Assembly (NCBI GenBank): GCA_016795505.1
Contig: JAEUHH010000094.1
Location: forward strand, 1 to 64,000
DNA from: Verrucomicrobiales bacterium
GTDB lineage: Bacteria; Verrucomicrobiota; Verrucomicrobiia; Verrucomicrobiales; DEV007
Length of the DNA: 64,000 bases
Reading direction: 5' to 3'
Part shown: piece after piece, positions 3,603 through 60,233 of the stretch
Numbering within the stretch: the stretch's first letter is position 1
How the letters are laid out: each line of letters opens with the position of its first letter
Notes under the pieces: model-generated
Told to the model about the DNA's origin: nothing
The model's database searches: none
Seen by the model: only the letters and a program-made list of their open reading frames with translations
Translations under genes and position numbers: made by a program

Positions 3603-4065
3603 CGGCGGAAATCCGAAGCCGCCTGCGGCGGAAATCCGAAATCCTAAGCTCTAAATCCGAAACAATTTCGAATGTCCAATCAGGAAAGGCTCAAAACCGA
3701 TACGGCTATCCCTTTGCCACTCATTCTCTTGTCCCATCCTCTGCGCCTCCGCGCCTCTGCGCCTCTGCGCCTCTGCGCCTCTGCGTGAGATTCTCCCAGA
3801 TTCCGCGCCGGAAATCCGAAACGAATTCGAATGTCCAATCAGGAAAGGTTCAAAACCGATACGGCTAATCCTTTGCCACTCATTTTCTTGTCCCATCCTC
3901 TGCGCCTCCGCGCCTCTGCGTGAGATTCTCCCAGATTCCGCGCCGGAAATCCGAAACGAATTCGAATGTCCAATCAGGAGAGGCTCGAAACCGACACGGC
4001 TGTTCCTTTGCCGCTCATTCTCTCGTCCAAGCCTCTGCGCCTCCGCGCCTCTGCGTAAGACTTTC
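3594..4065 (+). repeat. 135-bp repeat array, plus orientation
   Basis: The array begins with a palindrome made of GCCGCC, TGA and CGGCGG, which includes the antiporter stop codon. A second similar palindrome and AAATCCG motifs follow, then three repeats anchored on AATGTCCAATCAGG at about 3671, 3830 and 3965. The second interval is 135 bp. The first is 159 bp because the 8-mer GCGCCTCT is present three extra times. The same unit occurs in reverse orientation at 11955-12314. No open frame in it looks like a gene. Confidence 0.92.
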
Positions 4066-4102
4066 CCGCCGACCCGACAGCCTGACTCCTGAAAACGTGT
4101 TT

Positions 4103-4169
4103 CCGATCAAACCCTGTTTCCTCTCCGATCAGACCCTGTTCGATCGGCGATGAGACCCTGTTCGATCGG
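4103..4169 (+). repeat. 22-bp-period ACCCTGT units, cluster A (3 units)
   Basis: Three units start at 4103, 4125 and 4147. Each has CCGAT-like and ATCGG-like ends around a central ACCCTGT, and shares its end base with the next unit, giving a 22-bp period. They lie between the 135-bp array and the secreted-protein gene at 4251. I see no gene between 3603 and 4250. Confidence 0.9.
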
Positions 4170-11893: not shown

Positions 11894-11954
11894 TACACCC
11901 CCGAAGGCATAGAGGCTTGGACAGAGGAATGGGCGGTTCAGGGGAAAGCCCCCC

Positions 11955-12314
11955 GATCAGACAATCGAATTCGTTTCGGATTTCCGGCTCGGCTGGAGGG
12001 AAAATCTCACGCAGAGGCGCGGAGCCGCAGAGGCTCGAACAAGAGAATGAGCGGCAAAGGAACAGCCGTGTCGGTTTTGAACCTTTCCTGATCAGACATT
12101 CGAAGTTGTTTCGGATTTCCGGCTCGGCTGGAGGGAAAATCTCACGCAGAGGCGCGGAGCCGCAGAGGCCGGGCCAGGCGAATGAGCGGCAAATGAGCAG
12201 CCGTGTCGGTTTTGAGCCTTCCCTGATTGGACATTCGAAATTGTTTCGGATTTAGAGCTTAGGATTTAGGATTTCCGCCGCCAGGCGGCCCCGGATTTCC
12301 GCCGTCAGGCGGCA
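11955..12314 (-). repeat. 135-bp repeat array, minus orientation
   Basis: This is the reverse-oriented counterpart of the array at 3594-4065. Anchors at 11955, 12090 and 12225 are spaced exactly 135 bp. It ends at about 12314 in the same GCCGCC-TGA-CGGCGG palindrome, which here contains the stop codon of the minus-strand SDR gene. The octamer expansion of the first array is absent. The 411-bp gap 11894-12304 holds nothing else that I can identify. Confidence 0.92.
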
Positions 12315-13247: not shown

Positions 13248-13292
13248 CCGATCGAACCCTGTCTCCTCTCCGATCCAACCCTCTTGCATCGG
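13248..13292 (+). repeat. 22-bp-period ACCCTGT units, cluster B (2 units)
   Basis: Two units at 13248 and 13270 are 22 bp apart. The second has ACCCTCT instead of ACCCTGT. The cluster ends 28 bp before the 22-bp minisatellite. Confidence 0.85.
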
Positions 13293-13319: not shown

Positions 13320-13554
13320 CTTGGGGTGCCCCCAGTCAACGCTTGGGGTGCCCCCTGCCAACGCTTGGGGTGCCCCCTGCCAACGCTTGGGGTGCCCCTT
13401 GCCAACGCTTGGGGTGCCCCTTGCCAACGCTTGGGGTGCCACCTGCCAACGCTTGGGGTGCCACCTGCCAACGCTTGGGGTGCCTCCTGCCAACGCTTGG
13501 GGTGCCTCCTGTCAACGCTTGGGGGGCCCCCTGTCAACGCTTGGGGGGCCCCAA
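13320..13554 (+). repeat. 22-bp minisatellite, 10 full units plus 15 bp
   Basis: Ten complete 22-bp units (13320-13539) and a partial one. Every unit starts CTTGGGG and ends CAACG, with changes mainly at unit positions 8, 12-15 and 17. Variants come in adjacent identical pairs (units 2-3, 4-5 and 6-7). GGGG and CCCC within each unit can pair. Since 22 is not a multiple of 3, a repeated peptide is not encoded. The rest of the 718-bp gap 13034-13751 holds the elements listed beside this entry and no gene. Confidence 0.96.
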
Positions 13555-17115: not shown

Positions 17116-17160
17116 TCCCGCCGGCTGCCCCGCCATCGCCGGAGGAACCGGGCCGGCTTT

Positions 17161-17205
17161 CCGATGAGACCCTGTTGGATCGCCGATCAGACCCTGTCTC
17201 ATCGG
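17161..17205 (+). repeat. 22-bp-period ACCCTGT units, cluster C (2 units)
   Basis: Units at 17161 and 17183 lie between two co-directional genes (FG-GAP stop at 17115, oxidoreductase start at 17274). The first unit is identical over 23 bases to the second unit of cluster F (54741) read on the other strand. Confidence 0.9.
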
Positions 17206-32433: not shown

Positions 32434-32500
32434 GCGATCAGACCCTGTCTGGTCTCCGATCAGACCCTGTTTGATCGGAGATGATACCCTCTTTGATCGG
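32434..32500 (+). repeat. 22-bp-period ACCCTGT units, cluster D (3 units)
   Basis: Units start at 32434, 32456 and 32478. The first and third are more degenerate than the second. The cluster begins 43 bp beyond the ftsZ stop, inside the 282-bp gap before the propeller gene. Confidence 0.9.
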
Positions 32501-39736: not shown

Positions 39737-40072
39737 CGTCCGTGAACGTGCCAAACCCACCTGCCCCACGCAAACCGGAAATCGCCACCGTATTGCGCCA
39801 TGCGGCAATCCGCCACCCCGGCATTTCAACCGGAAAAGCCCGTCTCACCGGGAAAGAATCCTTTCACTGAGCTCACCACGGGTGGAAAGTGGACGATCGA
39901 CGAGGGTTTAATTGGAGAATCAACCGGGTTCGATCGGGAATGGCGAAGGGAAGGATGATGCACCTCACCACACAAGAGACGACGACAAAAGAGCGACGTC
40001 ATTCAGGCGGAGAGCCCTCATATCAATTCCTGCTGCCGCCCATTTTTAACCCGTATGGCTCCTATGAATACC
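39737..40072. other. 336-bp gap without a gene
   Basis: I see no supported gene here. A degenerate look-alike of the ACCCTGT unit (CCGGGTTCGATCGGGAA near 39928) is present but lacks the core. GC content falls across this stretch toward the island that begins at about 40 kb. Confidence 0.5.
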
Positions 40073-50164: not shown

Positions 50165-51283
50165 ATGGCCGCCATCTCCCATCTCTACGTTCACATCCCC
50201 TTCTGCCATCACATCTGTCCGTATTGCGGCTTCTACAAGCACCAACCGGGCCGGCTGGCCAATCGCGCCTTTGTCGATGCCCTACTCGATGAGCTGAGAC
50301 TCGCCGCCCGCGACACGGACCTCGCCCTCGAGACCATCTTTTTCGGCGGCGGCACCCCCACCCTGCTCAGCCCGTCCCATCTGGAGCGGCTGCTCACCGG
50401 CCTCGCCGGGCTGACCGACCTCTCCGGGGTGCGCGAGTGGACTCTGGAGGCCAATCCCGCCACCTTCGATCTGGCCAAAGCCAGCCTGCTCCGCGACCTC
50501 GGCGTCACCCGCATCTCGCTGGGCGTGCAGAGCTGGCAGACCGATACGCTGGCCACCCTGGGACGCGATCACAGTCCCGAGCAGGCAGAAGCCGCCTACC
50601 ACGTGCTCCGGGAGGCCGGCTTCGCCTCCGTGGGCATCGATCTCATCTTCTCCGTGCCGGGCCAGACCGCCGCCGGATGGGCTGCCGATCTGGACAAAGC
50701 CATCGCGCTCGGTGCCGACCACGTCTCGGCCTACAACCTTACCTACGAGGAGGATACGGAGTTCCTCACCCGGCACGAGCGCGGCGAACTCAACAGCGAC
50801 GAGGACCGCGACGCCTCCCTCTTTTACCTCGCCATCGACACCCTGGAGGGCGCCGGCTACCGGCACTACGAGATCTCGAACTACGCCCGCCCCGGCCACG
50901 AATCGCTCCACAATCAGGCCTACTGGTCCGGCGCCGACTACCTCGGCATCGGCCCGGGTGCCGTCTCCACCGTGGAGGGGCGCCGCTGGAAGTCCCTGCC
51001 CGACACCGCCGCCTGGATTGCCCGCATCCAGGCCGGCCAGCCTGCCCACACCGAGTTGGAACACCTCACCGACGAGGACCGCCGTCTCGAGCGCCTCGCC
51101 CTGCAGTTTCGCACCGCCGAAGGCATACCCGCCGCCATCGTCGCGGGAGGCGATCTCCGATCAGACCCTGTCTCATCGCTGATCGAACAGGGTCTCATCG
51201 AAATCGCCCCGCCCGGCGACCGCCTGCGCCTCACCCGCCGGGGCAAGGCTCTCGCCGACAGCGTCACCGCCGCTCTCGCCTGA
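50165..51283 (+). CDS. hemW: HemW-like radical SAM protein with a repeat-derived segment
   Basis: This 372-residue protein is a radical SAM protein of the HemW (heme chaperone, formerly coproporphyrinogen oxidase-like) family. The iron-sulphur motif is CHHICPYC (C-x3-C-x2-C) near residue 14. FFGGGTPTLL, SLGVQSW, FSVPGQT and the Tyr-rich HYEISNYARPGHES are all family motifs. HemW C-termini end in a small winged-helix region. Here residues about 331-346 (RSDPVSSLIEQGLIEI) are translated from two units of the dispersed ACCCTGT repeat (51157-51201), still in frame. The start is the ATG at 50165, 45 bp after the helicase stop. Heme trafficking is the likely role. Confidence 0.93.
   Translation: MAAISHLYVHIPFCHHICPYCGFYKHQPGRLANRAFVDALLDELRLAARDTDLALETIFFGGGTPTLLSPSHLERLLTGLAGLTDLSGVREWTLEANPATFDLAKASLLRDLGVTRISLGVQSWQTDTLATLGRDHSPEQAEAAYHVLREAGFASVGIDLIFSVPGQTAAGWAADLDKAIALGADHVSAYNLTYEEDTEFLTRHERGELNSDEDRDASLFYLAIDTLEGAGYRHYEISNYARPGHESLHNQAYWSGADYLGIGPGAVSTVEGRRWKSLPDTAAWIARIQAGQPAHTELEHLTDEDRRLERLALQFRTAEGIPAAIVAGGDLRSDPVSSLIEQGLIEIAPPGDRLRLTRRGKALADSVTAALA
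51157..51201 (+). repeat. 22-bp-period ACCCTGT units inside hemW, cluster E (2 units)
   Basis: The first unit (51157-51179) is on the plus strand and the second (51179-51201) is inverted relative to it. They share one base and keep the 22-bp step. Forty-five coding bases derive from the repeat without a frameshift or stop codon. Confidence 0.9.
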
Positions 51284-54718: not shown

Positions 54719-54763
54719 CTGATGAAACAGGGTAGGATCGGCGATCCAACAGGGTCTCATCGG
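54719..54763 (-). repeat. 22-bp-period ACCCTGT units, cluster F (2 units)
   Basis: Units at 54719-54741 and 54741-54763, both read on the minus strand, fill the gap between two convergent stops (54685 and 54777). The second unit equals unit 1 of cluster C over 23 bases. Confidence 0.9.
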
Positions 54764-60188: not shown

Positions 60189-60233
60189 CCGATCCAACAG
60201 GGTTCGATCGGAGAAGCAACCCTGTTTCATCGG
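60189..60233 (-). repeat. 22-bp-period ACCCTGT units, cluster G (2 units)
   Basis: The first unit (60189-60211) is read on the minus strand and the second (60211-60233) on the plus strand, so the pair is inverted, as in cluster E but with the opposite order. It lies between dprA and the GntR gene. Confidence 0.9.

Follow-up and report, generated by a model that had tools for sequence, protein, structure and literature searches.

The pair of near-palindromic repeat units inside hemW is best explained as belonging to a set of recognition sites, spread over the genome, for a putative DNA-binding protein, likely one that organises the chromosome, and a probability of about 0.55 is given to this reading. 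The open reading frame at 50165-51283 of the window (the whole stretch of 64,000 nucleotides that was analysed) was identified as HemW by TIGR00539 (E 2e-81; 273.7 bits against a cut-off of 205.4) and comprises the domains Radical_SAM and HemN_C. The array, at 51157-51201, falls in HemN_C (residues 301-362), and 83 nt separate it from the end of the reading frame. As the earlier note had described, it consists of two inverted units at a 22-bp step: both are 21-bp near-palindromes, their starts lie 22 bp apart and the second is on the minus strand. Its 45 bases are read in frame as RSDPVSSLIEQGLIE, which upholds the proposal that the units supply HemW codons, but not the idea of an insert imitating HemW, as the residues are homologous to those of relatives. 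Unit 1, at the 3' edge of a linker of variable length, codes for R-SDPVSS, and unit 2 codes for LIEQGLIE, whose residues are homologous in all close relatives. LIEQGL is indeed normal for HemW, as had been suspected, for orthologues read [ND]PV.SLI[EQ]QGLI at the same columns. All other arrays of the window are intergenic (Table 1).

Table 1. Position of hemW and of the repeat arrays in the window
Feature	Position	Strand	Remarks
Three-unit array	4104..4168		intergenic
Two-unit array	13249..13291		intergenic
Array, two strong units and a weak third	17140..17204		intergenic
Three-unit array	32435..32499		intergenic
Weak two-unit array	39894..39936		intergenic; outside family-pattern matches
hemW, radical SAM heme chaperone, 372 aa	50165..51283	+	ORF; TIGR00539
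hemW array unit 1, CGATCAGACCCTGTCTCATCG	51158-51178	+	0 mismatches to family pattern CGATSNRACCCTGTYNSATCG
hemW array unit 2, CGATGAGACCCTGTTCGATCA	51180-51200	-	1 mismatch to family pattern; 22 bp from unit 1
Two-unit array	54720..54762		intergenic
Two-unit array, opposite core orientations	60190..60232		intergenic

Tandem repeats of other kinds were also recorded in the window. A minisatellite, CTTGGGGTGCCCCCTGCCAACG, of 10.6 copies occupies 13320-13552 and begins 29 bp past the array at 13249-13291; its sequence is unrelated to the units and its period, 22 bp, is identical. Repeats of 135 bp at 3603-4067 and 11951-12253, about 8 kb apart, appear to be reverse complements of each other, and 36 copies of the heptamer AAGATCC (1-254) form the very start of the contig.

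The units conform to the pattern CGATSNRAC-CCT-GTYNSATCG, a 21-bp near-palindrome, and with two mismatches or fewer 647 + 603 of them are present in the 6.5-Mb genome, against none in the reversed-pattern control. In the window there are 25 matches if readings on both strands are counted, where shuffled sequence leads one to expect 0.46. Pairing of the cores is exact: in 1.07 Mb, 140 pairs stand 22 bp apart, and any other step between 14 and 39 bp accounts for 0-4. Arrays of two units predominate, with 55 of the first 72; a further 14 contain three units, one contains four and two contain a single unit, and every combination of core orientation is represented. Many arrays carry TTTCC/GGAAA-like ends. 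Genus g11 (genome G013) also uses steps of 32 bp, i.e. one helical turn more. In 146 units no covariation between the arms was detected, the complementarity of variable arm positions being at or below expectation; the arm positions thus vary independently, which favours half-sites read by a protein and disfavours hairpins. An RNA hairpin or cruciform was accordingly rejected, the window also being without an Rfam match at the gathering score. The positional frequencies of the units contain no GTAG-like 5' tetranucleotide, the G000-dialect pair, a narrow pattern, has no match among IMG/VR viruses, and in the literature that was searched no account of this element came up.

The distribution along the chromosome was studied with one profile per genome, in 1.07 Mb (16%) of the window's genome (G000) and a smaller share of the others, all or nearly all of these genomes being drafts, mostly from metagenomes. 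In G000 the number of arrays called is 121 whichever threshold between 16 and 24 bits is applied, and reversed DNA yields none; 92 of the 121 are fully intergenic, in DNA that is 82% coding according to a home-made gene caller. The distances between arrays have a mean of 8.5 kb and a coefficient of variation (CV) of 0.48, as compared to 0.93±0.08 for uniform placement and 0.86±0.07 for placement in random intergenic gaps, the lowest of 5000 such placements being 0.63. A single distance of 109 is shorter than 2.5 kb, where random intergenic gaps predict 23.8±3.9. Spacing in G013 is in agreement (61 distances, CV 0.52), as is the over-dispersion in the small samples from G074 (11 distances) and G025 (8 distances); evenness is less strong in G081 (14-16 distances).

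Among 75 genomes of the family, arrays are frequent in genera g1 and g11 and in most of g2, and essentially absent elsewhere. The unit core is constant and its flanks form lineage-specific variants, here called dialects: CGATC in G000, CGAAC in G013 and G025, and GACYY-like in G074 and G081, the last type being resembled by the few arrays seen in the genus-mates G001-G003. One-to-one orthologues near arrays, hemW left aside, retain it across genera in the same relative place, be it one side of the gene or its interior, in 8 cases against 3.1 expected, a value of at least 8 being reached in 95 of 20000 shuffles. Besides hemW, two genes have an array within their coding sequence in at least two genera. 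One is a large gene with an array at LDLTGLPPSSDRV (L248 12553-12595, contig G000:C7), where LTGL codons already spell the core and G074 has an array at the same alignment column. The other, of about 1,195 aa, bears its array in a variable stretch (L241 11307-11349, contig G000:C9), within which the G013 and G074 orthologues have arrays too.

In g1, g2 and g11 the HemW orthologues usually have not only the homologous residues but also the paired cores. The stretch that runs from a conserved Gly to the Ser-Leu measures 20 aa in G000; it has 22 aa in three genus-mates, 16 in most members of g2 and 28 in G025, so that the linkers differ from that of G000 by 6, 12 and 24 nt. As none of these is a unit length, the idea that a unit was inserted in hemW finds no support, although a change of 12 nt in the linker next to unit 1 is conceivable. 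The hemW site of G025 (L194 6300-6384) has four cores, at steps of 22, 32 and 22 bp, and a linker longer than in relatives. The insertion of a mobile repeat, which the earlier note had entertained, was thus not borne out, orthologues in three genera holding homologous residues and the unit pair at that place; for the same reasons an in-frame inserted palindromic element was rejected. A repeat capable of moving or amplifying, such as REP/BIME or MITE, inserted into or overwriting hemW and then accommodated, would account for the high copy number, the palindromic units, the mostly intergenic location and the TTTCC/GGAAA-like array ends. It is nevertheless improbable, since the position in hemW is shared by orthologues of several genera and their length differences do not correspond to unit lengths, the array distances are over-dispersed, the arms do not covary and Y1_Tnp does not track the arrays: G025, with 462 pairs, has one weak hit, and G021, with 0 pairs, has 16. 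REP/RAYT was rejected on these transposase counts, which show no tracking of the array counts.

Comparison of the orthologues indicates that the hemW pair is an old orthologous site at the DNA level, overlaid on the gene and following the dialect of its genome. Third cores, placed exactly one 22-bp step downstream of unit 2 or upstream of unit 1, are present in hemW of G074, G075, G081 and G070; they lie in another reading frame, so that protein constraint cannot explain them. Synonymous choice at the site is strongly biased, Gly being GGT in 20 of 22 cases against 3.2 expected and Pro being CCT in 18 of 19 against 1.6, both counts uncorrected for shared ancestry. The bias is weaker in array-poor relatives and absent in outgroups, those lacking arrays having GGT in 0 of 9 cases. 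The flanks of the G000 site score best with the G000 dialect (29.2 against 5.6-17.7), the sites of g2 and of G025 are fitted about best by the dialect of their own group, and that of G013 about equally by several dialects. That the HemW protein sequence merely happens to spell the motif is suggested by the resemblance of NPV...QQG codons to ACCCTGT...ACAGGGT and by the ordinary HemW residues of unit 2; it is nonetheless strongly disfavoured in view of the synonymous bias, the additional cores that keep the 22-bp step exactly in other frames and the tracking of dialects.

The density of arrays and the number of mismatches at the hemW site are negatively correlated (Spearman -0.69, 35 genomes, shared ancestry uncorrected). 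Exceptions are G065, with a fair array count and a degraded site, and G080, which keeps most of the site and has almost no arrays. The case named beforehand as contrary, identical bases in relatives without the family, is therefore encountered to a slight extent, the sites of array-poor relatives tending to be degraded, with exceptions. The HemW tree requires several gains or losses of the site. Gene conversion, the second process put forward earlier, would keep the hemW copy similar to the rest of the family. The rule set in the earlier note, equal length with altered codons, points in that direction, as do the agreement of the G000 copy with its own genome's dialect and the core of unit 1, which has the opposite orientation in three genus-mates with the 22 bp to unit 2 retained. 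However, the pair is found in the relatives as well, where it mostly follows their own dialect; homology between arrays extends over only about 45 bp, with unrelated flanks; and no tract into the flanking codons is seen. Point substitution under selection yields the same outcome, and selection on a protein-recognition site accounts for the hemW site as well as conversion does. As the HemW codons already resembled the signal and few substitutions suffice, conversion is possible but not needed, and it is considered an improbable source of the pair.

Recognition by a putative DNA-binding protein would proceed as follows. Each unit may consist of two half-sites, a dimer being the most likely reader, and, since steps of 22 bp (in g11 also of 32 bp) place the 2-3 units of an array on one face of the helix, two dimers are probably bound side by side. 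The over-dispersed sites, about 4-10 kb apart and mostly between genes, would most likely serve to anchor, bridge or partition the chromosome, while sites inside genes, as in hemW, would be kept through codon choice. The HemW helix [ND]PV.SLI[EQ]QGLI is already near to ACCCTGT...ACAGGGT, and a few substitutions could make and maintain the site with the frame unchanged. No binding protein was found; canonical ParB, the sole candidate checked, is present in array-rich and in array-poor or array-less genomes alike, and a ParB/Noc paralogue was rejected because no extra copy tracks the arrays. More tentatively, and with the odds somewhat against it, the arrays may form a chromosomal 'ruler' of paired protein sites at near-regular 4-10 kb, whose dialect shifts by lineage and takes hundreds of sites along, that of hemW included. 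The hemW site provides an example of a signal carried in coding DNA through codon choice, and it allows comparisons that test in what way hundreds of sites are altered jointly when their reader changes.

The main rival to a protein site is a signal of the DNA-uptake type, the DNA uptake sequences DUS and USS being known to be evenly spaced and to have dialects. The arrays would then be uptake signals of natural transformation: a surface receptor would prefer DNA with the paired motif, and biased uptake followed by recombination would spread it, tolerant coding regions included. Relatively even spacing and an excess in non-coding DNA are described for DUS/USS in PMC1939737 (citing Karlin) and PMC7811141, and DUS dialects in PMC3630211. 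The present family shares the many copies with relatively even spacing (CV 0.48 against 0.93), the lineage-specific dialects (CGATC, CGAAC and GACYY types) and the non-coding excess, and evenness by itself also fits an uptake sequence spread by molecular drive. ComEC is present in array-rich genomes but equally in array-less relatives, and the competence gene was rejected as a discriminator, ComEC occurring in 23 of 24 genomes. The unit is not one short non-palindromic word: it is near-palindromic and its core may have any orientation, while non-palindromic sequence is described for DUES. Arrays normally have two or three phased units, single units making up 2 of 72 arrays, in contrast to the single short DUS. 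An uptake signal is hence rated unlikely, although ahead of a mobile repeat, gene conversion or chance. Paired, helically phased, near-palindromic sites in Verrucomicrobia would add a third case, unrelated to the two proteobacterial families with evenly spaced, dialect-bearing uptake signals; either the list of such signals would grow, or a system that organises the chromosome by an inherent distance rule would come to light.

A protein-read set of sites may be compared with several known systems. Like REP/BIME with RAYT, the family has palindromic, paired, mostly intergenic units in more than 100 copies; unlike them, it shows no GTAG-type lead, arm covariation or tracking transposase, and has even spacing and a conserved position inside a gene. 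The ARG boxes of ArgR are tandem operator pairs, two palindromes about two helical turns apart, and the same geometry here is consistent with protein subunits lying side by side; the present sites differ in numbering hundreds and in not preferring gene starts. Palindromic elements in coding genes of Rickettsia are insertions of about 100-150 bp; as with these, the hemW repeat is read in frame inside a conserved protein, but no unit is inserted relative to relatives. In contrast to DUS/USS, which occur once per 1 kb, there is about one array per 9 kb here, made of two or three near-palindromic units in 22-bp phase. The features shared with the DUS/USS of Neisseriaceae and Pasteurellaceae are a copy number of hundreds to thousands, fairly even spacing, dialects by lineage and an excess in non-coding DNA, with copies also in unconstrained parts of coding sequences.
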